Below are positions 3,149 to 49,041 of a stretch of DNA of 64,000 nucleotides, one piece after another (the stretch's first letter is position 1; each line of letters starts with the position of its first letter). A program made the translations under genes and the position numbers. The notes under the pieces were generated by a model. That model was not told the DNA's origin, did no database searches, and was given only the letters and a program-made list of their open reading frames with translations. The stretch comes from Spirogloea muscicola (lineage: Eukaryota; Streptophyta; Zygnematophyceae; Spirogloeales; Spirogloeaceae), in contig WELB01000027.1 of NCBI GenBank assembly GCA_009602725.1, positions 178,972-242,971 on the forward strand. Direction: 5' to 3'.

Positions 3149-6100
3149 CTACGTTGGCTGGCTGTCGTTCAGACTAAGAGCAGCCAGCTGATCAACTGCC
3201 CCACCCTGAGCCATGCGGAGGACTTCCATAGCTTCGTTGACCTTGCTCTTGAGAGCATCGGGAGACTCAATCAGGTGCAGAACTTCAGTCTGATCCATCT
3301 CCAGGAGCATTCCGGTGACCTTTCCAGCGTGCTCATGCTCCAGCTGATCGACAAGCGGATAGAGCTGCTCTCCCAACATCTGCACATGGACAAAAAAGAC
3401 CTGGACAGCTTAACATCCTATCTTACGATTTCAGTGAATATTGAAGTCCATCAACTCTTATGAGTAACCTAGCCACAATGCTCAATGTCAACAGCTAAAA
3501 CCTTCTGTATACTGCTAACTGCAAAGTGTGGCCAACAGCACCTGAAGCACTGACAAGAACTCTCATCAATTATATTTGTTCAGACAAAGACCAGGTGGAA
3601 AGAAGCAAGGAAGGAGAGGAACGTGCAAGTACCGCGCGTTGCTGCTCCGGTGGAGCTGAAGCGAGAGCCGATGCCAGAGCGCTAATAGGCACAAGCTCCT
3701 GGCCAGCCAAGTCTAATGGCACGGGCAGAAGAACACCTCCTGGTATGCCCTGATTGGCAACAAGCCCGTCTTGACCATTGCGCCCAGCTGGTCCATATCG
3801 CATCTGTCCCTGGCTCTGGCGACGGGTCAACATCTGCAGTGCATAGAGGTAGAGGGATGCGTGAAGAGTCCAAGCAGCAGCCTCAAGAGCTGCAACTAGC
3901 TGCTACAGTATCTTGCAGCATATTGTACAATGAGGCTTAGAAGTAATCTGCTGCAAGGACCAACTCCTGCTGTCATTGTTGGGCGCAATGCAAGCAACTG
4001 CCACATGGTAGAAGTGGAGGGTCGTTTCAAGTGACAAGATTACCTGCTGCTGGGGCTGGCCGGGCTGAGGCTGCTGCTGCTGCTGAGGATTGGCACCTCG
4101 TCGGCCTCCCATTCGCTGATTCTGCTGATTCTGGCGAGGGACGACCGGCACATAGAAGTTCGGCATCTGCGTCCCACCAGGGCGCATTGCTCCCAGCATC
4201 TGCTGCTGGTAGCCAAAGTTTGCAGGCTGCAGTGCAGGAGAAGGGGAGTCAGACCAGAATCCAGTGACTGGTAGCAGCCATTTCCCATTGGCAACCCAGT
4301 AGCAAACGGCTTCCCACAAAGAGCTGCATTGCCCACAGTGATGTGCTTCATTGAAAGATTTAGTGCCTCAAAGCATTTCCCAGTACGACATATTTGAATC
4401 ACCTGTGGTGGAATCAGGCCAGGGGGGGGCTGCCCATAGAAAATTTGCTGGCCCATCCCAGGGGCTGCAGGATGGTACATAGGCATGTTGCCTGGAACCC
4501 CTGCACTGACTCCCATTGGAGTAAGCCCTCGTGGCACACTGAATTGGGCCTGCAAATTGAATTTGACATGAGTTAGCCTCAGTACATATCGTGGTAGTGA
4601 TGATGACGGGAAGGCATACCACTCAGAGATAGATTGTCTCAGACTGTGAAAACATACAACCGGAAGTATGGCTTTCCTCGATAGGCACAACCATAGAGAT
4701 GTCCAACCTGTAAACGTTGCCTCCTATCCTCCTTCCTCTGTGCTAAAGCAACATAAAGTGGCTTCGAGCCTACCATCTTTCCGTTCATCTCGGTAACCTG
4801 CACCAGTGAAACTGCCTGAGACTCTAGGCCAGAAGATTTACTTAAATGCGTCACAAGTACAACGTGCTGAAAGGTGAGGAGGAAAAGTGACACCCGTTCT
4901 GCAAAATACGTTAGCAAAACCTTTTGCAAAGACAAGGTGGTCAAGATGCATAGATGCAACTGCTGCGATACTTACAGCACGTGTGGCTTCCTCTGGGGTC
5001 GCAAATGCAACAAAGCCAGAGCCTCGACTCGTGCCAGAAGGGTCCCTCATGATCTGCAGAAGACAGAAGAGCCTATGAGGTGCTGCTTCCCAGATCACGA
5101 TAGAACAGCAATATATTTTGCACCAGCTTAACAACGATGCAGCAAGAAAACCTGGATTGCATGCACAGGTAGCACGTCTGAGAATATGGAGATTAGGTTT
5201 CTGAAGTTTTAGAGATCTAACCTTGCATGAAGTGATGGTCCCAAACTCAGCAAAAAACTCGCGCAGTTTCTCATCATCCATGCTGTCTTCAAGATTCTTG
5301 AGGTACAGGTTGACTCCCTGATACTTCTCCACCCTCTCCTTTCTGTCCTGCTCGAATTTCTGTCGAAGCTCCTGCTCCCTCTCACCTTTCTTCTGAGCTC
5401 TACCAACATACCACTCCTTGTCATCGAACTTTTTACCATTCAAGCCTTCTACAGCCTTCGCAGCATCATCCGCGTGCTCAAAGTTGACAAAGCCAAAGCC
5501 CTTGCTCTTTCCGTCTGGATCCTTCATGACAACAGCGCTGCTAATGGGCCCATACGCCGAGAAAGTGCTCTTAAGGTCGTCATCAGTGGTATTATCACCA
5601 AGGTTCTTGACATACACATTACTGAAGGTGGCCCCGAGCCCCTGATCCCTCTCCTGGCGCCTCACAAATGGCCCTACAAAGACTTGCTTGTCTTCCAGCA
5701 GCATCCCGTTGACTTTCTCTATAGCATTCTGCGCTGACTCGTCCTGCTCAAACTGCACAAAACCGTACCCCTTGGACTGGCCCTGGGCATCCTGGGCCAC
5801 CTTGCAGGATAGGATGGGACCAAAGGCTTGGAAGGTATCATACAGTGCTTTGTTGTCGATGGTCGTGTCGAGGTTCTGCCAGCAAGGCAATGATAGCATA
5901 TCAGGCGCTAAGCACAAGAAAGTACTGTGGCAACTGTGACAGCAAGATAAGAAGATCTTACGACCTCTGGTAAATTCATGCTGGCATGCTACCACATGCT
6001 CAGGAGTCACAGGTACATGTGGCCACCTTGATGAAAATATTTGCAGTGCCGCTTTTGCGAAGGCTGGGGTCCCGATGGGAGAACATGATACGAATGGGTT

Positions 6101-6710
6101 TCCCATTGATGGGCGTGAAGTTGAGCAGCTCCATAGCCCTTCCAGCTGCAAACACATGCGGCACTTCAGAGGACAACCACCTCGGCCCTAACAACAACAC
6201 TGGCTAAGTAAATGGGAACCTTGGGACCGTCATATGACTCCTCTGTACAGGGCAGAGCCGAGCTTCGTACCGCAAAGGGCGCTACATGCAAAGCCGAGGC
6301 AGCCTATGGCAGAACCTGGAGCAGGGAGAGTTTCCTTGCTGTAGCTAGGCCTTTGCTGAGTGCCCATGCCACAACACTCCAACCTACATGTTGCTAACAA
6401 CCAACAGGGCCATCCCGACGGACTGCGATGCGTAGTCCGTGGCACTGCCTGCACACCAGTGGCCAGTGCTCACCGTCCTGCGCGCTGTTGTAGTTGACGT
6501 AGGAGTAGCCCAGGGACCTCCGCGTCACCAGGTCGCGGCAGACGCGGATGGACACGACGGGCCCGACCTGGCTGAATATCTCGTACAGCTGCGCCTCGGA
6601 CACGTTCGCCTCCAGATCCCCGACGTACAGCGAGGTGCTCGAGTGCTGCTGCCCGGGGCCGCTGCCGGCGACGCCTCCGCCGAGCTGCCCGCCCTGCTGC
6701 ACGGGGCCGC

Positions 6711-7560: not shown

Positions 7561-10440
7561 ATGAGGGAGGTGGTGACGCTCCAGGTGGGCAGCTACGCCA
7601 ACTACATCGGCGCCCACTTCTGGAACTTCCAGGTACGAGCCCGCGGCAGACTCGCCTCAGACGCCGCTGCGTCTCACACTGAGGCCATCTTATCAAGCCT
7701 GGATGACGTGAATTGGTCGTGGGTATGGGACAGGACGAGCTTCTTGGACGGGAAGGCTCGCCAGACGAAGGGGAGGCCGTCAACGACATTGACTCAGGAG
7801 TTCTGTACAGGGTCGGCGAGACATTACGAGTGAGCACAAGCCAATGCACAAACGACGGCCAGCCATTACATTGTACCTTCTGCTTCTGGGCCACACCTTA
7901 ACCTGAGCTGTTGACAGTGCTGGCCGCTCATCTGCCCATTTGTATAAGCTGATGATCTACGGTGTGATGCACCGAGAAAGGGGGAAGCTACGTACACACC
8001 ACGACTCTTGCTCTTTGACCTCCGTGGTGAGCATCCTGAGTGTGGAACCCTGCAGTTTGGAACTCTGCTGGTTATCATTCAACACACTGTGTGCGCGCCT
8101 ATTGCAAGTCAATTTGAACTGCGTCAATTTCGCTGTAGAGGCTCTGCTGCCACAGGTCAACATAGTTCAGAAGACAGATTGCAGCAGGGCAAGTGATTAT
8201 CGGGCACAGTGATTGGCAAAGAGTTCTAATGTCGCATGTCAGGCAGCCTTGGCTCCGTACGGGGAGCTGGATCACTGTATGGCGCAGCACCTGCAGCCAA
8301 CCTGTCCTCCATCCGAACATGGTAATATCATGCTCTGCAGGTTCCATCGGGCCGTCTTTGAACACTTTCTCTCGTTGCTCCATCACTACGACTTGCTTGT
8401 ATATACAACGTTTGAGTTTTTGTGGTGGATGGATGGATCCTGATTGCAAAAGTACAAGGGATGTGCTTCAGGGGGGGCGCGAAAGCTGTGTACAAATCAG
8501 AGCCTGTCGAGAGAAGTCTGTACCTGCAAAGCCTCGACAATGAGGAGGACAATGGTTGTGGACAGAGCAGCAACATGGACGGGGAAAGGCTATCTGATAG
8601 GCCAGCAAGCACTGGGATGTCACCCACAGCGCGACCGGAGAGCGAGGAGCGCAGCATTGTGAAGGGCCTTCATGAAAGTGTGAGTTACTGGACGGACTAC
8701 CTTAAGGTGCACCTGCACCCCCGCAGTGTCGCGGAACTTGGCGGGGCCTGGCAAGGTGACCCGCTCAGCTATGGGGCTGGCAAGGGTCTGCTCGACTCTG
8801 GTGAAAGCATGGAGGATGTCCGTGACAGGTTGCGGTTCTTTGTGGAGGAATGCGACAACCTGCAGGGCTTCCAGTGCATCCTAGATTGTACAGGCATCTT
8901 CACAGCACCAGCCGAGAAACTCCTCACTGTGATAGAGGACGAGTACCAGACGGTACCCCGCCTTTCATTTGCATCCAAGCCGCCGATGGCACAGCTGAAG
9001 AACATGCGGGCCTCGAGGTCCCCTGCAGAAGAGCTGACTGCCAGCATCACATTCTGCAGCTTGTCACACCTAAGCCACCTTTTTGTACCCATGGACCTTT
9101 CTTGCATTGGCAGAGGTAAGTGAAATCTTTAAGATGCCTTATCCACCTGCGTGGAAGGCGCATACAGGCTATTGAGGTCTGGCTGTGTACATCGGCATGC
9201 ATGTAGTAGGTCTGTACTGGCATGCACCTACAATGGCTATGAGGAAGAAATCGATTTCAGTTTTACCATGCTTCTGCAGGTACTCGATTCCCGTATCTTC
9301 TAGTCAATGACGACAAGCCATATGAGAGCAGCGCAGATTATGCTAGTGCAATAGAGACAACGACGACTACGTTCAGGCTTCGGGCATCAGATATGGGCAA
9401 CCATGGCCAAGTCCCTCTTGGAGCTGATAATATGAGCAGCCTGGTCAGTAAGTTGGCCACACAGCCATCAGCCAACATTGGAGGGGCTTACGCTGCCGTC
9501 CCTGCGCCCCCTGTCTCGACTGTTGCTGGTATGTGTGACATACTAAATCCGAACACACTTCTGGATGCTGCTTCTCGCTGTGCTTGTTGAGCGCTTAGGA
9601 TTATGAGGCATCTTCCTTAACAAGTGCTAAAGTCAAGAGCCAGTAATCTGTCCACGCTGCCTATGCTCATCAGAGTAGGACTGATGTGCAAATTCCACCT
9701 ATGCTTAATTGCAGGCTCTGGCAGGTTGACCATGGACTTGCATCAGCTAGTACCATTATCTGATGGCCTCTGTGACTGGCCTCCCAGTAGCTCACTCGCA
9801 CAAAGTTTAGCTGTTCGGGGTGCAAGGTTGGCAGGTGAGGCTTGTCTTGTTTCTGTCAAAGGGGGCTTCACTGCTTCATTCGTCCTTCTTGAGTGGCAAT
9901 CTTGCTGGTCAAGAGAGGAGCGCTGGCATCTCATCAGCATGCCATGTAATTGCTGCTCTTCTTTCTATCTTCAATGCTCATTACCATGTGGTGGTCTTTC
10001 TTCGTCTTATAGGTGCTAGAAGGGCAGCCCTTGTCCCACAAGCCTATGGGGCTCTACAAGCCAGTCTTTCTGGCCACTCTGTCCGGCACGTGACTGTGTC
10101 GCGGCAGCCCTTACCCATCCCGCTACCATTCCCACCAATCTTTGCACCAACTGTGAGCAGTCGTGGGGATGTTGTTAGCCGAAGTGGGCCAACTGCTGGG
10201 CAAGCTAAAGGAGGACTTGAGGTCCTTTCGCTCCCTGCATTAACCTGCATGAGCTCAGGCTTGGAGGTCGTGCCCATCATCAAGAGGAGGTTGGAGGCAC
10301 TGGAGAAGTACGCATCCAGTAGGGCTGCACCTGGCATGTCAGTCGTCCGTGATTGGGGACTCGAAGGAAGTGACATTGAGGAGATGAGAGAGCGTTTGGA
10401 AAGCATGCTGCACGCTTATCATCACGATTTTGACGACTAG
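7561..10440 (+). CDS. MSTO1: Misato/DML1 family tubulin-like protein
   Basis: Homologue of Misato (DML1), a tubulin/FtsZ-like protein linked in animals and yeast to mitochondrial distribution and morphology. Eight exons: 7561-7632, 7734-7829, 7981-8026, 8243-8321, 8472-9115, 9280-9528, 9715-9834 and 10013-10440; total 1734 nt, 577 residues. Conserved family blocks are EVVTLQVGSYANYIGAHFWN at the N-terminus, GVLYR, YTPRLLLFDLRGSLGS, the LKVHLHPRS block, RFFVEECDNLQGFQ and PLPIPLPFPPIF near the end. The order matches the human protein throughout. Exon 3 is a 46-nt small exon with a poor pyrimidine tract (acceptor AAAG|GGG), so its left edge is the least certain junction. The ATG chosen opens directly into the conserved REVVTLQ block. 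Confidence 0.92.
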
Positions 10441-20770: not shown

Positions 20771-21189
20771 CAGCTAGCATCTAGCAGCTACTGGGGCTGC
20801 TAGTGGAGTGAGGCAGCAGCAGTGCCAGGAGGAATGGAGGGGTGGGGGGGGGAAGCGGGCTGTGAAAGGGGGCTGTGCCACGATTGTGCCAAAAGGGCCC
20901 AAAGGCGCCAAAACACACAGCCATGCAAGAGTCCATTCCTTTTTGGGTGGCCTCTCACAGCCACCAGTCAATCTGGCCGCGCCAGATTTTTATATTTTGT
21001 ATAGCTCATTTAATGCAAGAGACTACGGCGAATGGGAGCACAGTAACCCCCTGTCAGCAGCCGCCAGTCGGAGTGACTTGCAGCTGTAGTAAGAAAGTAG
21101 CAGAGAAGGCGGCTGCGGCCACGGAGCTGGGAGCGGATCAGATCGCCTCGCCCCTACCAGCATAGGCGGCCTTGGGTGCCGTCCGCTGG

Positions 21190-22495
21190 CTCGCCTGTCC
21201 CAAGCAGCTCACCTGGGTTGCTGGGCCCAAGTGGCCTCCACCATCTCCAGTCGCTTCATCCTGAGGGGCCAGGCTGTTTTAGCACCCGCTATAGCGGGTG
21301 TTGCAACAGGGACCAGGCCCTTCCAGCTTTCCCTAACCGCAGCACTGCATGACCTCTCGTGCTCCCTACCAACACTTGCCGAGGGTCATGCAGATTTTGC
21401 GGCATGGGCACGCTGTTCCGATAGGAAAGCGCAGGCTCACTACACACACGCTGCGGACGTGCAGGCCGCCTCCGACTTGAAGGGACTGCTCAAGGACGAT
21501 AGACGTGGCCTTACCCGGCTCCTTTCAATCGGCTCCCCGGGCGCGTCGGAGTGGCTAAACGCTCTGCCGATCTACGAGTCCCTTCGGCTTTCTGACAACC
21601 TTTTCCGCACGGCGCTCCACCACCACCTTGGCCTCCCCCCCCCTTGCTTGGCTGGCATCCGCCAGTGCGAGTGTGGCCACATTGCCGACGACAAGCTCGC
21701 CTTAGCTTCGCACATGCTGAGGTGTGTTGAGGGGGGTGAGCGCATTGCCTCCCACGACCTACTAAGGGATACCATGTTTGGCATTGTGCGAGAGGCGGGA
21801 TATCATCCGGCGATGGAGGTGTCTGGGATCATGCCAATCTCCTCAAGGCGCGGCAAGCCATACGTGCGGCGTCTGGACGTGGTCGCTACCCCGCGGGGCG
21901 GTGGGCCTCGTCTGCTCTTGGACGTGGTACTGATCGACGCATACAAGGCTGGCGCACCAACGTCAACCGTGTCTGGCTGGGCCACGTCCAGCGCGGAGCG
22001 CAAGAAGGAGCGGCACTACCATGATCATCCTCGAGGGGACCATCTTTACCCGTGTGCCATGGATATCTATGGAGGCTACGGCGTGAAATGGTCCTCCCTG
22101 ATCCAGCATCTGGCCCGGCTGGTTGATGCGCGTCGTCGAAGTCGGGGGGGCAGCTTGGGCCACTCCAGCATTCCGCAGGCCTTAGTTGCATATTATAGAA
22201 TGCGGCTCTCGCTTAGTTTGCAGCGCTCGCAAGCATTGGCTCTTCATCAACGTGCAGGGCGCGCTCTAAGTCAGGCCTCCGGCTTTCGTGGCGGCGCTCC
22301 AGCTCCCCAAGTTAGCTTGTCAGATTTGTTTGTGCTCACCCGTGGGTACTAATGTCATCTTAGGTACCTTAGATTAGGTCTCCGTATTATATAGCATTGT
22401 TTAGTCTGCACTCGACTCTGCCTGAACAATGTATTGGCTTGAATTGGCCTCCCTTTCAATTCATGCGCCCCGCGCGCCTTCTCTCGCCCAGAGAC
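21190..22495 (+). mobile_element. LINE-like retroelement, 5'-truncated, longest copy
   Basis: A 373-codon open frame (21231-22352) plus 3' UTR. Visible parts: a CxC...H...C zinc knuckle (QCECG ... SHMLRC, about residues 147-170), then a block RLDVVATPRGGGPRLLLDVV resembling a PD-(D/E)XK-type nuclease core, KKERHYHDHP and a conserved C-terminus RMRLSLSLQRSQALALHQRA ... VLTRGY. No reverse-transcriptase motif lies in this copy, so it is the 3' part of a longer element. The 3' UTR ends in GCGCCCCGCGCGCCTTCTC (22472-22490). At least eight shorter pieces in the window end at the same point. The shared 3' end and 5' truncation favour a non-LTR family; the exact clade is not resolved. The long open frame suggests this copy is among the younger ones. 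Confidence 0.72.

Positions 22496-26593: not shown

Positions 26594-26656
<63 letters not shown>
26594..26656. repeat. Poly(T)63 run before EIN2
   Basis: An unbroken run of 63 T between a GC-rich CGCGCGCGTC-like sequence and GGCGGCGGCGGCGG, 41 bp upstream of the EIN2 ATG. The base composition is alien to its context and a second such run borders an assembly gap at 54726. Probably an assembly or sequencing artefact. Confidence 0.85.
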
Positions 26657-26697: not shown

Positions 26698-29600
26698 ATG
26701 CCGCGCCGCGTGGCGGCGTCGCTGGGCCCGGCCTGCCTCGTCTCGCTCGGCTTCCTGAACCCCGCGGCGTGGGCCGCCATCGTCGAGGAGGGGCCCCGCT
26801 TCGGCCTCGACCTCCTCTGGGTGCTCCTCGCCTCCAACGCCGTGGCCGTCGGCCTGCAGCTGCTCGCTGCGCGCCTCGGCCTCGTCACTGGCAAGACCCT
26901 CGCCGAGGTCGCCTTCCGCTCCTTATCTCCGCTGAATCTCCGTCGAGATTTGGGCTGTCTCACCTAAGCGCCACGCTTTCTTGGCCGCTGCCAGTGCCAC
27001 TGAAGGTATTGCTCGGGCCGCTTGCGTCGTCCTGCCTCCTGGATTCAAGATGTGAGCATGTCGCACAAAGCCTCTGCTCGTGACTGATGAGATGCCCGCG
27101 TGCAACCGCGCTTTGGCTCACAGATGTGCCGCGAGGAGTACCCGTGGCCTGTCCCTGTCTTGCTATGGGCGTCCTGCGAGGTTGCAATCGTGGCCCTGGA
27201 CTGCATGATGGTGAGTGCCTGCGGCTCGAGCTCAGCACCTCTCCTAGCAGCACTATCGCTTTAGTGACTGCCACTCCCTCAACCTAGTTGAAGCCACTTG
27301 CTGACTCGCAAAGGCTTCACAGGTGCTTAGAAGAGACGAAGCGCCGGTGGGACTGTGGTCTGCGTGGGCTACTTGGCTGGCCGCCATCCTGTCTCGTGAA
27401 GCCGCGCGAGAGGGCTGCTGTCCTCTATCCGACAATCATTGTCTGGCACTTCATCACTGGCAGCTCTGAAGTATGGGTGTGTGCGTGTGTGCCCTGGGTG
27501 CCCTAGGTCCTGGGCGCTGCCATAGGGCTGAAGCTGCTCTTCAGTGTGCCCATGCTGGCCGGTGTCCTCATCATGGAGCTGGAACCAATCCTTACTGTCG
27601 CCCTGCCGCACAACGTGCTGGTATTTTACCAGAGATTCTCTTGCCGGTGCTGAAAGTGCATCCTTGAGGATGAGCTTTTGCAATTTGCTCATGCCATTGG
27701 TTTGGAAACGAACACTGCCTATTGCATGACGAGCAGGAGCACAAATGTGAGCAGGGCAAGGTTAGCAGTGTAAGTGCAGTCCGCCAATGCTAAGAAGCAC
27801 TGGAGCTCCTCTGCAAGCAGGGATTATCCTGGTTCTCTTTAGTAGCTGCAGATTGCATATCCTTGAACGAGCAAGCTCTAAAACGTTGCAAACTTCTGTC
27901 TCGTGCTTATTGACAGACCCCTAGTTTTTCGGTGAAGGCGGGGGCCACTGCTTTAGTCATCATCACCATGTGCTTTCTGAACCAGCTCGTGCGAACAGGC
28001 TCTCCTTTCCTTGAGCTGGACTCGGACTTTTCTGTCTTGGTCCAGCAAGACCGTGTCTGGACGGCCATGGCCTTTTTGGGCTTGAACGTCCTCCCGCAGA
28101 ATCTCCATCTTCACTCCTTCCTGCCGCAAGTAGGCCAAACTCCGGGATGAACCTGCTTCACAAGAGCTCTTCATAAATGATACTTCTCTTTCTTGCTCAA
28201 TCTCTAGTAGGCATGTCAAATGAAATTCCCTGCACTTAAGGACCTGGCAGTAAGCCTGACACTCTGCTCGCTCCATATTTTGTCGAGCCACACCTTGCTC
28301 AGCCCGTTGCGCTTCTTGCTCTTGTCGGCAGGTTAATTAGTGCACATCACTCTCTCCTGCCTTCTTCCCTGCCATGTGACCTCCTAAGACTTGTATTTCT
28401 ATGTTCACACAGGCCCCTCTGGAAAAGTACAGCCTTGTTAGCAAGCTTTATGTACAGAATGCTGTGGATATCTGTCTCTCCCTGGGCGTGGGCTTACTTG
28501 CCAATGCAGCAGCCCTTGGGATTGCATCTACAACGTTCTATGCAGGAGGGTCAGAACCCTCGAATGGCTTTATCAATCAGGTGCACTTGCTAACTTGTAG
28601 GTACTGTTCACGGCCATCAGCATGTGAGATTTGTGAGCGCATGTCCTGCCCCTGATTGTGGCAGGTGCTGCAACAGCGTACCATTTTTAATAGGGGCAAG
28701 CAACTCACGGGCTTGTCCAGCTTTCAGTGGCTGACTCCTCTAGATCACTTGCCTTGACTGTCGTGACCTTTGGTATGATATCCTACCCAGGTGTGGGGCA
28801 GCACCCTTGCCCCCGCATTTGGCGTCGCGCTTGCGACCATCGGCATCATCTCGTACTTGACGCAAGCGCTGTCTGGCCAAGTTGTGTCCAAGGGCTTCAT
28901 AGGCATGCAGAGCAAGCCTTGGCTACGGCGGAGTCTCGTTCGCACAGCCGGCGTCATTCTTGCCTGCACATCCCTTAACAGCCTTGGCGGCGTGGATCGC
29001 ATGCTGCAGTTGTGCCAGGTCAGCTTGCGATTCGCACCTCCAGCACTGCAAGTCTTTCGTCATGCAACAAGCAACACAAGTTGTAGCTGATTGCCACTTG
29101 GTGAAGCTGACAAAATGCTATTGGACTTCAATGCTTGGTCCTCAGGTGGTTATGTCTTTGCAGTTGCCGCTCACTCTCATCCCTCTGATCAAAGTCACTT
29201 CGTCGAAGGTCTACATGGGGCACTTCCAGATTTCACGCTTGGCAGCGGCAGCGGCCTGGACGGTGGGCATTATTATCTACGTGACAAACATCATTGTTCT
29301 CTATGAGAACATAGTCTACGACGATGGATCCTCGCTGTCCGGCGACCTGCGGTCAAATCAGGTGGTGTGGGCGACCTTGGCAGGCTCAGTGCTAGCCGGA
29401 GAGTTTGTGCTGGCAGCCTGGATGGCCGCCTCTCCGCTCCGACACACGGTTGGGACGCAGCAGCGAGGCTCTCTTGAGAGTAACAGTGAGGATCAAGCGT
29501 TTGTCCTGAAGGCGGTCAGCAGGAAAGAGGCTATTCCAGAAAACAAGGAGGAGTCAGGGCTGCGATTGCGAGGACCAAGGGCCGCCAATGGCCTGCGCGG

Positions 29601-32600
29601 CGAACAAAGTAGCTTTGACGCACGTCAAGGTGCCGAGCAGCCCTCCACTGAGGAGTCCCTGGAGCCGGTGGTCCCTAAGGAGGTGCAGGAGGAGCCACTT
29701 TTGCTTGTCCCTGCTCTTGATGGCGACATGCAGGCACTTTATGGTGCTTTTGATGGCAGCTCTGACAGGTTGGCAGTAGGCGACTCTGAGGTGTCCCAGC
29801 ACAACGAAGGGTGTGATATAGCGGCAATACCCGAGATGCCTGTGGGGCAACTTGAGACGGGCACAGCACCTGATCAAGAAGCTCTTCATGGTGACCAAGT
29901 ACTGGCAGGTTCTGGCAGTATTGGTGTTGGTAGTTCAGAGCTATTGGAGCTGAAGGAGCCACAGCAGGTGCAGGATGCAGCATCGGCAACTTTGCCAGCC
30001 GCAATTGATAGAGGAGCCTTGGACGATGCCTGCGAGCCGAGTTTGCTGGAGGTAGGAACTCTGGGCCATGGCAAGGACAGGTTGCCTGACGTGCCTTCAC
30101 GTGCAATTGAGGACCATGTTGATGGCTTACCAGCGGCCATTCAGCAGGCCGACAGTGTGGACGCGCAGAAGGCCCCCCTGGTCATCCTTGACAAGCCACA
30201 GGAGAAGACGAGGGCCAGTGAAGAACGGCCAAGCATGGGCGTAGACGAGACTGTGGTGCAGGGAGGGGGCCTGGAGCAGGCCAAGTCGAGGAGCACGGCG
30301 CTCCATGAGCCAGGGTACGAGCCGAGCATGAGCCTGCTTGACATTCTAATCTCAGAGGCGCACAAATATGGGCAGATCAAGGAGTGGGTTTTGAGCTCCG
30401 CTCTGAAGAGGCACAACAGAAAGGAGAGCGTGGAACAGGTGGGCGATTTGGATGCTGGCCTAGCGGACGCGCTCGAGCTGCATGTCGAGGTACTTGTCCC
30501 TGCCGCAGGTGACGAGCAAAAGTACGCCGTGAGCTCTGCTGAAGAAAAGGTCACTGCATCGGAGGAGCTTAATCAGTCTCTACCTGTGGAGGTAATGGCT
30601 GTGAGCTCTTCGGGAGGGCAATCTCCATCCTCCACAACATCAGAGAGCCAGGAGCCAAGCGCTGCTTCAGTAGCGGATTCATCGCTTTTTCTTCCAGAGC
30701 AAGTGAGCCCCCCCGATGTTAGCAATCACCCGCTGTGTTTGCTGACTGAGATCTCATGCATGCTGGATGCCTGCGTCCTTGATCATGAGCTGCCTGAGCA
30801 GCCTGAGCAGTGGCTCATGTGAAAGTTGACAACTTATGGCAGGATGTGCCGCCTGGAGCGAGGAAATCAGACAAGCTTTCAAGCTCGGCTCCAGCTTGGG
30901 TTCCAAGTGTACCTTCAGCATCTGCAAACCTTGTGACAAGTGATGAGGTGGAGCTCCACGACACCGACATGGACGCCGATGTCGACCTGGAGGACAGCGG
31001 GAACTGGAGCTCAGCAGTAGCAGGCGTGCTGAGCGAGGATCCTACGTCGCCACCAAGGGCGGGCGCGTCTCCAGCACTCATGCAAACAGGCTCTGCAGTC
31101 AAGTCCCAGCCCAGCTGGAGCGTGCAACCTGTGGCGGAGCGGGAGAGGTTGGCACCGGAGGGTGTTTTGGACCCCGGGAGCCTATCGCGCCTCTCGGGGC
31201 TGGGACGTGGCGCGCGGCGGCAGCTTGCGGCTGTGCTCGACGAGTTCTGGGGCATCATTTTTGACTTGCATGGGCAGCCTGTGGCTGCCAATAGTGGCGG
31301 CAGCGGCAGCCAGCAGCAGCACCTGGCGCTAGGACGAGAGGGAGGCAACGGCAGAGCTGGCGCCCAATTGGTGCCGCAGGACCAGCAGAACTTGGCAGGC
31401 ATGCCGGGGCTTGCGGCATACAAGCACAGCGGCGAGAAACCTTCAGCGGCAGGGTTCTCCGGGGCGTTTGGTCGCCAGGCCCCACACACCATCTCGGCGT
31501 CTACCCTCCGGCAGTTTGCCAGTGTCTCACGGTTGCCGCACTCTGACGGGCGTGGACATCACAACCATGCTGCCGGGGAGAATGGCAGCCTCTCGGTGCC
31601 CAACCTGTTCAGTTTGCCGGGCTATCCGGGGAGTGGCGATGCCATCGCTGCGTTGGACCGTGGGCAGGGCGCCGAGGTGCCCACCTACCAGCTGCAGCGA
31701 CGAGCCACGTCGATAACATCGGCGAGGATGGGTCTGGACTTTGGCAGCCACAGCTATGGCGATAGCAACCTCAATCTCCATGACGTACAGAGGGATGCAC
31801 AGCTGTCGTACTCCCGGGGCTCCATGGGGAGTCCCGGGAGTATGGCCATGTACGGCAAGTCGGACAATGTCGGGGCCAACTCCAGACAATTTGACAACGA
31901 CGTGGAGTATGCGATTGAGGCCCGAGCGCGGCGGCAGGTGCAGGAGCTCATGGAGGCCTACTTGCCATTCTCGAACAGGGCCACACCCATTTCGTTTGTG
32001 GTAGAGCCGCCAGCGCGCTCCTACCACCAGGACAAGGGCCGTAGTTCGTTTGAGAGGGATCGGCTGCAGGGAGATGGCGGCTGGGATGGCGGGGCGCTCG
32101 GTGGGCACCTGGGCTACCATGAACGTCTGTCAGAGGCAGACCCCATGCAGAGCTTCCAGGCTGACAGTGTGAAGGGATCAGCCGAGGGGTACAACCCAGA
32201 GATGGAGCAGCAAGCAGCGCATGCGAGGGCTCATGCCCGTCGACAAGCGCCTGGCTCGCATGACTGGAGCGACGGCGAAGGGGCAGCTCGGCCTGGGTAT
32301 GGGAACCTCGCTGGGGGCCCCCTGTCCTTTGACGATCTGGCGCCATCCCAGCAGATGCGCGACGCTTTCTCCCTGCAGCACCCGTCCTCGTCCGCCGAGC
32401 TCAAGTCGTTCTGGTCCAAGCAGCCTCACGAAACTCTCTTCGGCCCTACGCACGATCAGTTACAAGCATCAATCCTCAAGGTAATGCCGAGGCTATGGAC
32501 AGAGTGCACATGCAGGCAGGTCAATAGGTTTGCTACTATCATTGGCTGCATATGAAGCCTCACGGTATACACAAGGCTTAGCAATAGAGCTGACAGAGCC

Positions 32601-34045
32601 GCATCGGCTTCAGAAAGCGGCACTATGTGTAGGGTCAGAGTGACTATCTCGGGCCATTTTTGAAGGGCGGACTCATTGGCGTGTGCCCATCATAGTTCCA
32701 GCCTTCGCAAGGCATCAACTCACCCGCCTGCCCTGTGTGTTTCTCAGGGTCAAGCAACCGGCACGTGGTCACAACCTGCAGCTGCGCAGCATGAGCTTGA
32801 CAAGCAGGAGAAAGACGAGTTGCTCATGAGGCAACTCCGAAGCTGCCTGCACCAGCTACTCAAGATCGAGGGCTCCAGCTGGCTGTTCCGATACGAGTGC
32901 GGTGCAGACGAGGACGTGGTTGCGGCAGTAGTTGATCAGGAAAGAAAGCTGTACCAGGAGGCTGTACAGCTTGTGGTGAATGGCCAGATGAGCAGCGGGG
33001 AGGACAAGGGCCTCACAATTCTTAGCTTTCACAGGAAGCCCAAGGCCAGCAGCGACAGCATTGGCGGCAAGGATGCGCTCCCCCTTCTCTCGCCTGCTCA
33101 GCAGGCCCTTGCCATGGAGGCGGTGCTACTGGCAGCCTCCATGTGGGGCTGCGGGGAAGCGTGCCTCTGGTCCCCAACGCTCCTGGTCAATTTTGGAGTC
33201 TGGTGTGTGCACAGGGTCCTCGAGCTAGCCCAGATGGAGAGCCGGCCTGAGCTGTGGGGCAAGTACACCTATGTTCTCAACAGGCTGCAGGTAGTTGTCC
33301 ACATTCGAGATTGCTGCTTAAGTACCTCATCAGTTTATGCAAAGATTGCTGCACTATACCACAAATGTTGCAATATGATGCTGGTGCAGGCAGGCAGTCT
33401 TAAGTCCACAATGACCTCAGAGGTGCTTGATGTTCGACAATCTCTGCTGGATCTCATAGATTCTGTGATCACCTTGGAAGCTCAACCTGAGCACGTGCTG
33501 TAGGAGGCGGGCAAGGTCCACGAGCAGTCGGCCAACTTTGACCTTGCTGACTACAATCATGGCTTGGCACGTCTGCGATTCTGCAGGGTATCCTGGACCC
33601 CGCATTTTCCAAACCACGCACCGTGCCTGCCCTGTGCAAGTGCTTTGGCGATAAGGTGGGCCAGGACGCCGTATGTGCCCAGCAGTGGGGATCGCAACAC
33701 TCGCTGGCCCAGTCCATGGCCGGCGGCTTCCGGCAGGGTGGCGCCACACCAGCGTCTTCCACGCCATACTCGCGGAGCAAGGGCCCGCCAGCATCCGTGT
33801 TCCTGGACATAGTGAAGGAGGTGGAGACGGCGGTGGGTGCCCGGAAGGGCCGCACGGGCACTGCAGCGGGCGATGTCGCCTTCCCCAAGGGCAAGGAGAA
33901 CCTGGCATCCGTCTTGAAGCGGTACAAGCGGCGGCTAGGGAACAAGCAGCCCGGTGGGAGCCTCACGACGATGACAGCGTGTGCCAGTAGCACAGGGCCA
34001 CCACAGCGCCGCGGGCAGCAGCACCAGTCGTGGGTCCGCATATGA
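26698..34045 (+). CDS. EIN2: EIN2-like NRAMP-fold ethylene-signalling protein
   Basis: Homologue of ETHYLENE INSENSITIVE 2: an ER-membrane NRAMP-fold domain plus a cytosolic C-terminal end (CEND) that in land plants is cleaved and enters the nucleus. Ten exons: 26698-26907, 27124-27210, 27507-27620, 27917-28129, 28413-28580, 28791-29018, 29146-30702, 30843-32480, 32748-33290, 33587-34045; 5217 nt, 1738 residues (Arabidopsis 1294). N-terminal block: [20 protein letters not shown] and [86 protein letters not shown] and the NLS-like [16 protein letters not shown] metal motifs are altered: DPG is NPA, and the helix-6 histidine position reads PQN. Two huge exons encode a low-complexity linker. The exon 7 donor could instead be at 30591; the later one keeps more coding-like sequence. 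Start ATG precedes [10 protein letters not shown]. Confidence 0.94.
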
Positions 34046-34780
34046 CAGCAACGATCCAGCAGCGTGCACGAGCCAGCGAGCTGCGGTTGTGCTGCGCAAG
34101 CCATCTCCCTCGCCCCTCTGCCACTAGTTTCTGTACACAGCTTTTTGTAAAGCTTCTTCTTCCTGCCTTGCTCCCCACTGAGGAACAACAGCAGCAGCGT
34201 GTGCCCATGTGCTGCCACTCGTACAGTTGGCGACAGCCTCCCACTCGCATTGGTAGTGGGGCTTCAGGTACGCCACATCCTAGTGCGTCTGTTGCAGGTT
34301 GGTGGATGATAGAGTTTGCCCTCTCGGCGGGAAACTGCCGGATTTTGCTCGCGTTGCTAGCAGCTTGTTCAGACCAGTGGTCGAACTAACAGTCCATCGG
34401 GTGCTGCTGCGCACCGGCTTCAGTCCAGCCCCCACAGTAGTGGCACACTGCTCGGCCGGGGCCATGGCACCCACGCTTCTTCATTGTAGACGCCGTACAC
34501 ATTCTTTTGCTTTTTAAGAAGCTCAGACCCAAACACGCATGCCAGTAGCAATGGCAGCCTATCCGAATGCGACATCAGACTTCGCGCTTGCGCTTGCACA
34601 TTGTAGACAGCCAAATCTGGTAAAAGACTTGGGGGCTGACGCAGTGACCTGGCAACTCCCCTATGGCAGTCAGTCAGTCAGCCGAGGGTGAGTGGGCCGT
34701 GTAAAAACATGGCAAGCCGAGCCCTTGGCAGCCCTTGACCTGTTGAGTGCCCACCTGGCCCCTCTGGAGCTCCTGTCATG
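34046..34780. other. EIN2 3' flank
   Basis: About 735 bases with no conserved coding sequence; the proximal part should be the EIN2 3' UTR. Confidence 0.45.
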
Positions 34781-35010
34781 AACAAGTACAAGGACCACCC
34801 GGCGGCCCTTCCCGGTGGCTCGGTGCCTTTGGGTCTTGTGTCCTGCTACCGTATGCGCTTGTCTATGTCCCTACAGCGGTCCCAGGCGATTGCTTTGCAT
34901 CGCCGGGCTGGTCGCGCCCTTGCAGCAGCCTCTGGTTTGCGCAGCGGGGTTGCTCTTCCTCCCCTCAGCTCATCTGACTTCCTACTGCTGACTCGGGGGT
35001 ATTGAGGGCG
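34780..35010 (+). mobile_element. LINE-like 3' end fragment
   Basis: Encodes a C-terminus parallel to the copy at 21190-22495: YRMRLSMSLQRSQAIALHRR, AGRALAAASGLR, SSSDFLLLTRGY then stop at 35005. 5'-truncated; only the last 70 or so codons remain. Confidence 0.75.
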
Positions 35011-36139: not shown

Positions 36140-37080
36140 TGGCTTCCCCATTCAAGACACATTCCTTCGTCTCTGGGGTGGTATTCCCTTGCTCTTCTCC
36201 AGAAGCTCCAACCCACACGGAAAGCCGTCCACTGGTTGTCGCCAGTGGGCACGTCGCTTCTTGGGCCAGCCACATGGGCTTCTAACCCCGGCAGTTTGTC
36301 AAAGGTGGACCTGATCCTTCAACACAAAGGCAAGGGAGGTCGGATTCCAGCAGCAGCAGCCATGGTGCAGTAGCAGCAGCAGCAGCAGCAGCCAACATAG
36401 CACCAGCAGCTACTACAGCAGCAGCAGCATGAGCACCACGGCCAGCAAGAGCAGGAATACAGCCAGGCGACTCAGCATCACCGTCATCCTCTGACTCTTC
36501 AGGATCCTTCCCATGTCGAGGAGCTCCCCTTTGCCATCCGTTGCCATGCTCGTCGACGCGTGCCAAATGTCGAGTCGATGGTACGGTCGGCACCACAGGG
36601 CTCCATGGAATGACCCTCATCTCGTGTGATATGAAGCAGGTACGCTCCCCCACAATGAGCTGAGCCAGTCCTGCACTTTCCTCCAGCCCAATACAGAGGC
36701 TACTCTGGCACTGGTGCTACTCTTCGCACAGTCCAGGATTGGAACCAAAGCTCCCATGGCAATCTCAACAGCACAAAAACAGTCGGCCACAAAACGGCTA
36801 ACACACCCATGCAAACGACACACAGTCTGTACAGGCTGTTGTTGTTGATATGGCAAGAATCACCATTCAGAGCATCAAGGACAAGAATCTCAAACTCGGC
36901 CTCGAGCACATTGTCAACCTTCACCTCCCAACCGCCGCTGACTTGGACTCCAGGCATTTGTCAATACATTAGTGCTGCATTGACATTGCAGCCATGTAAC
37001 TTCGTTACACCTGGTCAGGCCTGGCCAGCTAGGCGCCTAGCTCAGTCACCGTCCGGCTCAGAAAAGACGGTGACGGTAAT
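36140..37080. other. Anonymous region with CAG/GCA repeats
   Basis: Contains imperfect CAG/GCA trinucleotide repeats at about 36350-36435. Open frames on both strands (for example minus 36957-36700, with a hydrophobic stretch CVVCMGVLAVLWPTVFVLLR) match no family I know and are not annotated as genes. Confidence 0.4.
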
Positions 37081-37636
37081 ATTCCGGGTCCTGGGCATTC
37101 GGTTAGCCCTATTCTTGCGCGACGCCGATGGTCAGATCCACACCCGGCGCGCTGACCTAGTCGCCATCCCGCCCGGAGGCGGTCCGCGTATCATCGCGGA
37201 TGTGGTGACCGCCGATTGTGTCGACTCCGCTAACCCCTCCAAGTCGGCGTCGACCGCTGGGCATGCGGTCGCTCTGGCGGCCCGAGGCAAGGAGCGGAAG
37301 TATGCAGACCACCCCCCCGGCGACGAATTCGCGGCCCTTGCCATCGACGTCCATGGGGCTTATGGCAGCGGCTGGCTGGATCTCATCCAGCGGCTTGCCC
37401 GGCAGGCCATTGAGCGGCGGCCGGGTCTGCCAGGGGGGCTGCCCGGCTTCAATGCGGCCGGCTTCCTGGCCCAGGTCTTCCGGATGCGGCTCTCCGTGTC
37501 CCTCCAACGCTCCCTCGCTCATGCCGTTCACTCGCGTGCAGGCCGCGCTATCGCGGCTGCTTCTGGGTCGCGTCTGAATGCTACTTTTCCAGCTTCGAGC
37601 TACTCTGACCTGATGTTGCTCACCCGCGGGTATTGA
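37080..37636 (+). mobile_element. LINE-like 3' fragment with nuclease-like domain
   Basis: Parallel to the C-terminal 180 residues of the copy at 21190-22495: RRADLVAIPPGGGPRIIADV, KERKYADHPPGDEF, AIDVHGAYGSGWLDLIQRLA, FRMRLSVSLQRSLAHAVHSR, DLMLLTRGY and stop at 37636. The shared aspartates and the following KER segment fit a PD-(D/E)XK-like core. 5'-truncated; it differs from the other copies enough to belong to an older or separate subfamily. Confidence 0.75.
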
Positions 37637-38264: not shown

Positions 38265-38494
38265 CCTCTTAGCCTGTTGTATATTGGGATGTGCTAACCC
38301 GTGGGTAGTACACGTCACACTTGCACCTGCTTCTTTCCTAGCCAGCTTAGCATCTTTCCCCTAGCATAGGGCTTCCTTTCAAATAGCCCAAATTTTGGCA
38401 CTATTTTTTGCCTGATGAAAGGCAACGTCTTCACTTAAGCCATCGTTCCATTGCATGCGCTACGCGCGCCCTCCTATTCTTACCAGCTTACCAG

Positions 38495-38498
38495 CGGC

Positions 38499-38537
<39 letters not shown>

Positions 38538-41500
38538 GCGGCGGCGGCTACTCGCCGTTTGCAACGCCCGACCAGCTGCAGCTGGAGCTGCAGCAGCTCG
38601 CGACGACTGGCGGCGCCGTCTCTTCCTCGTCCTCCGCCAGCTACCTCGCCTCTGCCGTCCCCCCGCAGCCGTCGGCGTCTCAGCCGCCACCGGACGTCCT
38701 CGCTCAGCTGCAGAGCATGCAGGCCACGCCGCACAAGCCGCTGCTGCCGCCGCAGCAGCCGCAGTCGCAGCGCTACCAGCCGCAGCCGCAGCCGCCATTG
38801 TACCTCGGCGGACACCCGTCGCAGTATGACACTGCGGCGGCTGCAGCAGCGGCATTGCAGCAGCAGCACCAGCAGTTCCTGCACCAGCAGGCGGCGGTGT
38901 ACCAGCTGCCGCCGGCTTCGTCGCCGCCACGGCTGCCCCCCGTGCGCACCGGCAAGGCGCCATCGCCGCCGCCGCAGCAGCAGCTGCAGCAGCAGCGGTC
39001 TCTGCCCCGGCAGCAGCCGAAGCGGTCGCCGTACACGTCGCCGTCGCAGTCGCCCCCCATCTCGCCGCAGGTGCAGGCCATGCAGCGGCTCGCCATCAAT
39101 GGGGGCGACCTGCCGGCTGCGCCGCAGCACTATGGCCTCGTGGCCAGCGCCAGCAACGGCGGCAGGGCTGCCGGCAGCTACAGCCCGAACTCGCAACCAA
39201 AGCAGCAAGCGCCAGGGAGGGGCGGCAGCGACGGCGAGCCGGCACTGAAGATACCGCCGCTGCCGGACCTGGAGGGCCTGCCCGGCGCCGCCGCTGGCGG
39301 CGGCGCCGCCGGCGGTGGCGCGCTGGACGGCGGCGGCCCTGTGCGGCCCGTCAGCTCGCAGCTGGAGCAGCTGCTCATCAACTGCGCGGAAGCCATCGAC
39401 CGCGCCGACCTCACCGCCGCGCACAGCATCATGCAGGCGCTCAACTCCATGGTCTCCCCGCACGGCACCGCCTCCCAGCGCATGGCCTACTACTTCCTTG
39501 AGGGCCTCGCCGCGCGCATCGTCGGCACCGGTGCCGCCATCTATCAGGTGCCTGCGCGTCGCCACAGATGCCGCTGCCTCTGCGCTGCCACTGCAAGTCC
39601 TTCTCACCATTGATGGCTGGCTCAGCTTCCCGCCATAGAGGTGTCAGGTAGAACATGCTACTTGCTCCGTTGGCTTGTGAGCGTGTCATATACTGACAGT
39701 CCACGTGCTGTGAATGTCCAGCCCGCGAAGCACATTCAGCTGATGCTGACTCTCTGCCCTTGCCCGCCACTTGCAGGCTCTGCAGAGCAACGCCGGCCAG
39801 GAGCCAGGGCCAGCGAGCAAGGACATGCTGCAGGCGCTGCTGGCCTTCTTGGAGGCCTGTCCGTATGCCAACTTTGGCCACGTGGCTGCCAACGGCGCGA
39901 TCCTGGAGGTGTTCGAGAATGAGCCGCGAGTGCACATTGTCGACTTTGGCATCACGCATGGCACGCAGTGGCCGACGCTCATCGAGGCGCTCGCCATGCG
40001 GCCGGGCGGGCCGCCCAACCTGCGCATCACAGGCATTGATGCGCCCCTCACTGGTCTAAAGCCCTCCAGCCTCCAGGTGCGCCCCGGTCGTGCATGCCCC
40101 TGCACCTCTGATGCTAAGTCAGTGATATCACTACCCATTCTGTAATGATAATCTGGAAAATGAGACGAGAAGGTTGTAAGTCACACAAGGCAATATATAA
40201 GCTGGGCGCTCCGTTGACGTTGTTGTTAGCCATCAGCTAACGCCCCAATTGCTCTGGATCTGCACTCGTATTTTGCGCTCTGCAGGAGACAGGCCGGCGG
40301 CTGACGAGCTTCGCAAAGCTGATGGGCGTGCCATTTGAGTTCTGCCCGATCACCGAGCACCTTGACAGCCTGCAATTGTCGCAGTTCGAGCTGCGCAAAA
40401 GCGAGGTGCTGGCCGTGAACTGCATGCTGCGCCTGCACCAGCTGAATCCGGGGGAGACGTCCAGCCACAGCAGCCCGCGCAACAATGTGCTGAAGCTTAT
40501 CCGCGCCATGGAGCCACGCATCGTGACCCTCGTTGAGCAGGTGCTTGCCCGTCCTCTATCTACATTGGCAACTTTAGATGGTTTTGACGTTGCCAAGGTG
40601 CGGCTCATATCATACAAAGTGCATACAAGCTGGTATGGTGGCTTTCTACTACTTAGATCCTACACCTGAAGCCCAAGTTATCATCCTAAAATACTAGAAT
40701 TGTGAGCCCTTATTCTAGGTACTTCCTTGAATCCTGCAGCATGCATTCGACAAGTTCATGTGTTGGTGTCTTTGTCAGTTGTTGCATTAGTGGAGCTTGT
40801 CAGGGCTGCCTTTGAGGTCAGCAGAGGCGAGTGAAGGAAATCTGGCGATGTGACGTCGAGGCATGGGCTGCCTCTGAGCACCTCCCTCTGTCCACAATAT
40901 TAAGGACTCAGTTACTGAATATTTGGATGCAATGCTCGCTTCTGCTGAACCGTTGCTATGGCTTGTTCCTGTGCCACGTGTGGCACGCAGCACTCAGATG
41001 ACAACCTGCCATATTTCACCTCGAGATTCCGCGAGGCACTGCACTACTTCTCAGCGCTCTTCGACAGCCTGGACGTATCGCTGCCATGGCACAGCACCGA
41101 GCGGGTGCTCATTGAGGAGCGCGTCCTCGGCCGCAAAATCGTTAACATTGTCGCGTGCGAGGGTGCTGAGCGCATCGAGCGCCACGAGCGTCACCAGAAG
41201 TGGCAGGTGTGTTTCACTGAGCACTTTGAACATCTCTGCCTGTCACTCTGCTGTGCAGTGGCTGTGTGGAGTTACCAGGCAATCCAACTTGCTCTGCGTC
41301 TCGTTTTGACTGATCTATTGGTTGAAGGATTTCACTCTGGTGTGAGCCTCTCCGTCAGCTGGACATCAGCCATCAGTCGTGGGAAGCATCCCTGTTAAGC
41401 GGCACGCTCTCAGTTCATTGACATTACCCCTGTGTTTGGCAGTACCGCATGCGGCGGGCAGGCTTTGAGCTGCAAGCTTTGAGCGCAGACGTGATCGACA

Positions 41501-47400: not shown

Positions 47401-49041
47401 GAGGCTTCAAGGTATACAAGCTTTCTGCCTGCCAATGTGTTGCAATCTTTGGTGCAGGACAAGGAGGAGTTGTTGGAATACAGAGTACTGTGATTGTATG
47501 GTCCTCAGTCCTCTTCTTGCTGACTGTTGCTGCAAATGTTTCGGCAGGAGCGCCGCCACGAGTACCTCAGTTTCTTGAGGATCTTCCAAGTCCTTGCCAT
47601 ATCATTGATTTGTGGAAGTCTGTGGTACAACTCTAACCACAGTAACAGTCAAAAGCTACAGGAGCAGGTGAGCTGCCATCTGTCAACTTGAGCTTATTAC
47701 ATAAACTATGAGGAAGCATGGGATGTGCAATCTCTTGCTGCTGCAGTGCTATGAAAATTCAAAGATGTTGTGGTCAGCTGACAGCTTCTTGACCCATGTA
47801 CAGGTTGGTGTGCTCTTCTTCACGTCCATCTTCTGGGGCTTCTTCCCTCTCTTCACGGCCATCTTCACCTTCCCTCAGGTACAAGCAGCAATCCTTGTAT
47901 GCTCACAGCATGGTCCATCTTATCTGCAGATTCAAGCGCAGCCTCGTGGCATATGCATGTTGCTATTGGAACACACCCCCCCCCCGGCGGGGAAAACAAT
48001 ATGGGTGCATGCTTGTTGCAGAAATTGCTAAGCCTCTTTAAGGGCAAGTATAAGAACGATCATGATAAACTAAGGGTTGTCATTATCCTCTCTTTACAGG
48101 AAAGATCAATGCTTATGAAGGAGCGTGCTTCAGACATGTACAGACTGAGTGCGTACTATGTCAGTCGGACAAGCGCTGATGTACCTATGGAACTCATTTT
48201 ACCATTGATTTTCATCTGCATCGTCTACTGGATGGCGAATCTCAAAGCAGATGCTGGCCTCTTCTTCTTGACTGTTCTTGCAGTCTTTGTGGATGTCTCT
48301 GTTGCTCAGGTGAGGCCAGATTTTATGCAAGAGTCATGTGACCAGATTGGGTGGCACCACTGCATGAAGTATTGTGTGAGGACCATACTCTATGAATCAG
48401 GAATAACCATGCACCTCTTCACCTATGTGATGCAGGCAATGGGTTGGTTCATTGGAGCAGCAGTCATGCAAGTAAAACGAGCAACCACTTACGCCTCTGT
48501 CATCCTTCTCACTTTCATGCTTGCTGGTGGATACTATCTTCAGGTATGCTGCAATTGATTGCCTTAGTGTCAAAAGTAGTATAATTTGTGTCCTGAAGAG
48601 AAACAGTTGTTACTTTTATTTTGATAGTCATTGTCGGGCATAGTAGGAAATGCTCAGAAAGATAGAAATTACTCATAGAAGAGCTGGTCGATTCTCATTC
48701 CACTGCACATCAATCATTTCTTAATCAAATGCAGCTGATATGACTACTTCCTCTGTCTTGTTGTGCAGCACATACCCCCTTGGATTGAGTGGATCAAGTA
48801 TCTCAGCTTCAATTACTATGTCTATAGGTTGATGCTGAAAGTGCAGTACAACCCCTCTGACACCTACTTCTGTGGTCCCACGAACAATGTCCAAAGCATG
48901 ACCTGTTCACTCAGTGGCGCTCCAGCTCTTCGAAAGGTCTCATTAAACGGCGGGGGTACTGAGGCCTGGGCGCTCTGCCTCATGTGGGTGGGTTACAACC
49001 TCCTGGCATACATTGCGCTGAGGCGGATGAAGTTGAAGTAG
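44491..49041 (+). CDS. ABCG half-size transporter (WBC type)
   Basis: ATP-driven membrane exporter with nucleotide-binding domain first, then six membrane helices. Thirteen exons: 44491-44683, 44996-45168, 45332-45489, 45725-45844, 46034-46189, 46417-46600, 46804-47097, 47247-47411, 47548-47667, 47804-47878, 48100-48309, 48436-48543, 48769-49041; 2229 nt, 742 residues. Walker A is [10 protein letters not shown]-loop VTQDD, signature ISGGERKR, Walker [14 protein letters not shown]-loop TTIHQPSS. Membrane part: [20 protein letters not shown], the [20 protein letters not shown] elbow, [14 protein letters not shown] and the C-terminal [16 protein letters not shown]. The sequence recalls plant ABCG14/21/22/25-type half transporters, whose substrates include cytokinin and abscisic acid; the substrate here cannot be told. 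Near the N-terminus is a short Ala-Asn-Gly-His repeat. Start ATG opens MSGSRLDG; an upstream exon in the gap is not excluded. Confidence 0.95.
46237..46280 (+). repeat. TGATGTC tandem repeat in ABCG intron 5
   Basis: About six near-perfect head-to-tail copies of the heptamer TGATGTC inside the intron between ABCG exons 5 and 6. A minisatellite-like tract, likely length-variable. Confidence 0.85.

Follow-up and report, generated by a model that had tools for sequence, protein, structure and literature searches.

A probable EIN2 ortholog in the alga Spirogloea muscicola, with an NRAMP-like membrane domain and a conserved C-terminus

Zygnematophyceae are the sister lineage of land plants. In the present study we describe a gene for EIN2, a protein of the ethylene pathway, in a 64,000-nucleotide stretch of the zygnematophycean alga Spirogloea muscicola (assembly GCA_009602725.1, contig WELB01000027.1, positions 178,972 to 242,971), hereafter called the window; its contig is abbreviated C27, and other contigs of the genome are named likewise. 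The gene at 26698-34045 on the + strand is, we hold with good confidence, the EIN2 ortholog of this alga, where genome triplication has left two or more homeologs that look intact. A preliminary description of the same DNA had called it an algal, full-length, EIN2-like gene, an identification that is borne out at the DNA level. The S. muscicola genome is known to be triplicated (PMC7994812) and to encode three EIN3/EIL proteins (PMC9136324), and homologs of EIN2 have been reported from Zygnematophyceae and from Chara (PMC10518463). An S. muscicola EIN2 named SmuEIN2 (SM000027S09592) appears as a tip in Fig. 4A of Karim et al. 2025 (PMC12290401), the only paper in which our literature search found this locus tag. 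Since that tag is given there and the window lies on C27 (scaffold 27), the gene described here is very probably SmuEIN2. That EIN2 predates land plants is an idea already published, and the gene itself is most probably in print. The additions made here are two intact-looking homeologs with a seemingly shifted splice donor, uneven constraint along the protein, and a metal site that is altered in each of the two.

Gene model of the EIN2 locus

The spliced model comprises ten exons encoding 1738 amino acids (aa) followed by a stop codon. Splice sites were placed by visual inspection of the reading frame and then checked by script, which found GT-AG borders and phase 0 at nine of nine introns; the coordinates and exon number previously given for the gene are correct. 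The features, in window positions, are listed below, where dN/dS denotes the ratio of nonsynonymous to synonymous divergence from the second copy on C28.

26698-26907, 27124-27210, 27507-27620, 27917-28129, 28413-28580 (+): exons 1 to 5
28791-29018, 29146-30702, 30843-32480, 32748-33290, 33587-34045 (+): exons 6 to 10
26908-27123, 27211-27506, 27621-27916, 28130-28412, 28581-28790 (+): introns 1 to 5, GT-AG, phase 0
29019-29145, 30703-30842, 32481-32747, 33291-33586 (+): introns 6 to 9, GT-AG, phase 0
26698..29460 (+): membrane domain of NRAMP type (aa 1-445), covering exons 1-6 and the first part of exon 7 (Pfam Nramp; alignment with MntH, 5kte; dN/dS 0.18)
29461..30702 (+): low-complexity, fast-evolving linker in exon 7 (dN/dS 0.58)
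30843..32480 (+): exon 8, linker with a 26-residue EIN2 block (aa 971-996), QPSWS (aa 948-952, candidate S645-like site) and RDAFSLQ...SFWSKQP (aa 1365-1387); frame and acceptor kept in C28
32748..33290 (+): exon 9, CEND core with WCVHRV and a 19-residue motif (dN/dS 0.20)
33587..34045 (+): exon 10, C-terminal 152 aa with a 35-residue motif, the nuclear localisation signal (NLS) block, and the stop (dN/dS 0.06)

In this model, consecutive phase-0 exons are predicted to link the membrane domain with a C-terminus of EIN2 type that carries the NLS block.

Likeness to EIN2, membrane domain and homeologs

The predicted protein was compared with an approximate copy of Arabidopsis EIN2 (AtEIN2; 1293 residues, one short), the sole land-plant EIN2 sequence used. 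Three strong blastp matches are collinear between the two proteins: aa 3-439 (29% identity, E 1e-47), aa 975-1007 (70%, E 2e-11), and aa 1337-1720 (39%, E 1e-65). Given these values, and a top score of only 32 bits in 200 shuffles of the Spirogloea protein compared with the real 233 bits, the likeness is not due to chance. The conserved histidine of WCVHRV (H1560) presumably matches H1143 of AtEIN2. The four C-terminal blocks quoted in the preliminary description were all recovered in the spliced protein, at aa 1447 (17 residues), aa 1568 (18 residues), aa 1672 (20 residues), and aa 1696 (11 residues); an 11-residue block is exact, as is LKRYKRRL in the form quoted in PMC12290401. Conservation is concentrated in islands, with 27/38 aligned residues identical in the block at aa 971-1010, which the preliminary description had missed and which is about as strong as the other blocks, 45/64 in the CEND core (aa 1540-1605), and 40/51 in the stretch with the NLS block (aa 1655-1705). 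Outside the islands (aa 441-970, 1011-1360, and 1361-1420) identity is 23-26%. The view that nearly every block of land-plant EIN2 is kept therefore holds for the islands but not between them, as judged on this one sequence. The protein is 444 residues longer than AtEIN2 (1738 versus 1294), in agreement with the earlier figure of about 440. The attribution of this extra length mostly to two large linker exons is only partly right, because the final membrane helices likewise fall in exon 7, and the block at aa 971-996 lies in exon 8.

Searches beyond EIN2 were largely negative. Exons 8-10 (the last 879 residues) had no Pfam match with E of 0.1 or lower, and a PDB search with exons 9-10 gave a single weak match (E 0.38) that we take as chance. 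An AlphaFold model of exon 9 from a two-row alignment had a mean predicted local distance difference test score (pLDDT) of 39 and was not used. Single-protein scans, which reach close relatives only, gave 23 pattern matches for exon 9 in a bacterial and archaeal collection and 11 for exon 10 in viral contigs, none of them confirmed. Within the genome, a CEND query gave four matches at two loci, C27 and C28, with only the best candidates scored.

The first 453 residues match the Pfam Nramp profile (E 1.6e-62, profile positions 1-356 of 357). In NRAMP transporters, the motifs DPGN in transmembrane helix (TM) 1 and MPH in TM6 contribute residues for metal and proton binding. Aligned with Deinococcus MntH (5kte), the C27 copy reads NPAA (aa 21-24) for DPGN and LPQ (aa 196-198) for MPH, and the C28 copy reads SPAA and LPQ, so neither has the pair of motifs of a metal transporter. 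All four ligand positions examined in TM1 and TM6 are changed, the former aspartate being Asn in C27 and Ser in C28. An ordinary NRAMP on C6 retains LDPGN and IMPHN by tblastn, and those on C24 and C186, read at TM6 only, retain IMPHN. We take AtEIN2 to keep the TM1 aspartate (DPGK) and the TM6 histidine (VPH); the algal copy would therefore be further from a transporter than AtEIN2. GQSSTIT or GQSSTVT in NRAMPs of the same genome corresponds to GIISYLT in EIN2, and this GQSSTxT motif has been called crucial for metal transport (PMC13211123). A literature search found no paper combining EIN2 and DPGN, and the replacement of NRAMP metal and proton residues in both EIN2 copies is new here.

The second EIN2 copy, on C28, lends the gene model independent support; it has collinear flanks and 90% DNA identity over 8 kb. 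The two proteins share 1582 of 1726 aligned residues (92%), the C28 frame running through 1734 residues with no stop when a shifted donor is used. Exons differ by 1.4-8.4% and introns by 4.9-24%. Over the whole gene (1729 codons) dN is 0.041, dS 0.149, and dN/dS 0.28; to the values by part listed above can be added 0.23 for exon 8 and 0.13 for exons 9-10 together. Exon 2 (29 codons) has no amino-acid change, and otherwise exon 10 has the lowest ratio. From dN/dS by part, purifying selection acts on both ends of the protein, and constraint on the linker is loose.

At the aligned places in C28, acceptors are AG in nine of nine cases and donors GT in eight of nine. The place of the exon 8 donor (about 6598-6625 of the C28 locus sequence) reads TT, with one extra base alongside. 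At 21 bases upstream, a G in place of the T of C27 creates CAG/GTACAA (junction at the slash) in phase 0, and we infer that C28 uses this shifted donor. A broken C28 copy is less likely, since the upstream site gives a full 1734-aa frame.

The homeolog also bears on whether two neighbouring genes, one NRAMP-like and one with CEND only, were wrongly joined in our model, in which case the alga would have no full-length EIN2. Such a state is reported for Spirogyra, whose EIN2 is apparently without the membrane part, and Mesotaenium and Klebsormidium appear to be without EIN2 (PMC12290401); moreover, the linker between the two parts is long and fast evolving, and the model was built from DNA. However, exon 7 runs as a single open frame through the final membrane helices and about 400 codons of linker, and junctions 7-8, 8-9, and 9-10 are phase 0 and GT-AG, kept in C28 except for the one seemingly shifted donor, across introns of 140, 267, and 296 bases. 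Insertions or deletions between the copies measure 9 and 3 bases in exon 7, and 9, 6, and 9 bases in exon 8, plus a single base at its very end beside the altered donor. We consider a wrong joining quite improbable.

A third collinear block lies on C180. DNA at window 44085-45727 matches three places, C27 itself, C28 (86%), and C180 (84%), and the C180 flanks are collinear on both sides of EIN2. A tblastn search found no EIN2 similarity in 40 kb of C180; the stretch between the flanks, where EIN2 would lie, reads N, so a loss of the third copy cannot be claimed and was dropped. The C-terminal block shares 40 of 51 aligned residues with land-plant EIN2, which might suggest land-plant contamination instead of an algal gene, but the long matches are only 29-39% identical, and the collinear homeolog on C28 and flanking block on C180 leave this explanation with practically no weight.

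Divergence between the two copies is low in intron 2 (27211-27506; 4.9% compared to 11-24% in other introns) and in exon 1 (26698-26907; dS 0.017 compared to 0.149 for the whole gene), for which either gene conversion tracts or a conserved element may account. A run of 63 T (window 26594-26656) ends 41 bases before the start codon, and the matching C28 stretch has no T run longer than 2.

Ethylene pathway and possible mode of action

The 153 Mb genome (471 contigs) holds many genes in threes, among them an ordinary NRAMP triplet on C6, C24, and C186; another NRAMP occurs at a single place on C60. An ethylene receptor and EIN3 are found in the same genome as EIN2. The EIN3 domain occurs at three loci (C4, C45, and C13; 7 matches). 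ETR1-like sensors lie on C176, C110, and C104, where the best exons reach 78-81% identity with AtETR1 and VLCGATH is kept, a motif that presumably holds the Cu ligands, and a more distant set (53% identity) lies on C70, C1, and C159. The ETR1 query gave 25 matches in all, some of them to the post-sensor part on other contigs. One stretch, C103:161367-161597, is 41% identical to the ETR1 post-sensor region and sits inside an unusually long open frame of 5750 residues. The PF14381 (EDR1/CTR1) domain gave 21 matches on six contigs. A search for the RTE1 family gave no match in the genome, and none in 14 controls either, so it is uninformative.

The membrane domain may serve as a non-transporting anchor and docking part at the endoplasmic reticulum (ER), where receptor and Raf-kinase output would control the C-terminal part, which in turn would act on targets through the conserved core and the last 50 or so residues. 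Release of the C-terminal part by cleavage and its entry into the nucleus are plausible; alternatively, it might stay at the ER surface and work there together with receptor and Raf kinase, a mode proposed for abscisic acid (ABA) signalling in moss. In AtEIN2, S645, the CTR1 phosphorylation and reported cleavage site, is taken here to sit in PPSFRS. The cleavage at S645 is debated (PMC4283510), and a literature search found no paper joining EIN2, S645, F646, and cleavage. Mapping of the CTR1 phosphosites onto the algal protein gave one S645-like candidate, QPSWS, 21 residues before GSLSRL and kept in C28. SVPNLFSL (about aa 1106-1113) was considered as a match to S924 and ruled out by eye, its order relative to neighbouring blocks being wrong.

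Several points weigh against the overall reading of the gene given here. QPSWS is a weak candidate, as PS[FWY] arises in 223 of 10000 shuffles of its 50-residue stretch, and no collinear S924 counterpart was found in the pairwise alignment with AtEIN2, in a linker that is not reliably alignable; we do not regard S924 as diagnostic of the EIN2 family. The membrane part scores no better against AtEIN2 (29.3%, 156 bits) than against MntH (29.2%, 164 bits). A tree of the NRAMP domain places the EIN2s together, apart from MntH and two NRAMPs of the same genome (support 98/99), but it has long branches and just six sequences. A crude hydropathy scan of the whole protein showed 11 peaks, with overlap within two pairs, instead of 12 clear helices, and missed TM6. 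The AtEIN2 comparison sequence was approximate, and one transcript spanning both NRAMP and CEND exons is what we infer. The very probable match to SmuEIN2 draws on scaffold number, triplication, and EIN3 count, and the PF14381 loci are candidates among which no CTR1, if one is present, was singled out.

A C-terminus bearing the NLS and older than land plants is supported, in line with earlier reports (PMC12290401, PMC10518463). The same mechanism as in Arabidopsis had been proposed for the algal protein, and the strong conservation of the NLS and of the last 50 aligned residues agrees with it, but with the phosphosites and the moss data taken in, the proposal is only partly supported. In moss, the ABA response was restored by constructs without the membrane part and by a PpEIN2A altered at two NLS arginines, but no longer once the last 80 residues had been removed (PMC12290401). 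Since the NLS mutant works, conservation of the NLS block alone is no proof of nuclear action. In this alga EIN2 might instead serve osmostress (ABA-like) signalling, chiefly at the ER surface and in partnership with ETR-type receptors and B3-Raf kinases, rather than work through CTR1-gated cleavage and entry into the nucleus; the NLS-like block would then be kept for receptor binding. This would fit the moss results, including an EIN3 reported as not required and the NLS-dependent binding of ETR1 cited in the same paper (PMC12290401), as well as the lowest dN/dS but for exon 2 in exon 10 while S645 and S924 are weak or not found. On the other hand, the lack of recognisable sites says little in a linker that evolves fast, the genome has three EIN3 loci, as a nuclear route needs, and moss CEND expressed without the membrane part was observed in the nucleus as well as in the ER (PMC12290401); the proposal comes from moss. 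We regard action at the ER surface as possible but rather doubtful.

A broader scheme, which we offer as speculative and rather unlikely as a whole, is that the NRAMP part of EIN2 had dropped metal transport in zygnematophycean algae, that the ancient core is the C-terminal stretch of about 50 residues with the NLS-like block, that the original EIN2 was an ER-anchored partner of receptor and Raf kinase, and that CTR1-gated cleavage sites came later, in land plants. If transcripts agree, two copies of a full-length EIN2, both under purifying selection, would mean that the membrane-plus-CEND architecture was present in Zygnematophyceae and was lost or trimmed in others of the group. The metal-site change and the uneven constraint bear on which protein part had the ancestral role.

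Neighbouring loci and comparison with known systems

Elsewhere in the window, a GRAS-family exon (38387-39613, +; E 4e-14) lies about 4 kb downstream of EIN2, and over 38.5-42.5 kb the DNA shares 88% identity with C28 and 93% with C180. A frame at 4838-6187 (-) has four RRM stretches and is presumably poly(A)-binding-like; a Tubulin_3 domain is found at 8416-9123 (+) and an ABC2 membrane domain at 47782-48558 (+). Frames at 21093-22352, 36659-37636, and 34739-35005 (all +) share the ends RMRLS.SLQRS ... LLTRGY, with no Pfam match in the two of the three that were scanned, and resemble the tail end of a mobile element with scattered copies.

Compared to Arabidopsis EIN2 (AT5G03280), the Spirogloea protein has the NRAMP domain, LDEFWG block, CEND core, and NLS block in the same order. 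The Arabidopsis protein is the shorter by the 444 residues noted above, and its S645 and S924 are without a clear match in the alga. NRAMP/MntH transporters (5kte and the ordinary NRAMPs on C6, C24, and C186) are homologous across the whole membrane domain, but MntH and the C6 NRAMP keep DPGN and MPH where Spirogloea EIN2 has NPAA and LPQ, together with its GIISYLT. The available excerpts of PMC12290401 do not describe the domains, metal site, homeolog, or phosphosites of SmuEIN2. While Spirogloea EIN2 is known here from DNA, Chara braunii EIN2 (CHBRA353g00160), likewise algal and with both TM domain and CEND, has been functionally tested and works in moss (PMC12290401).

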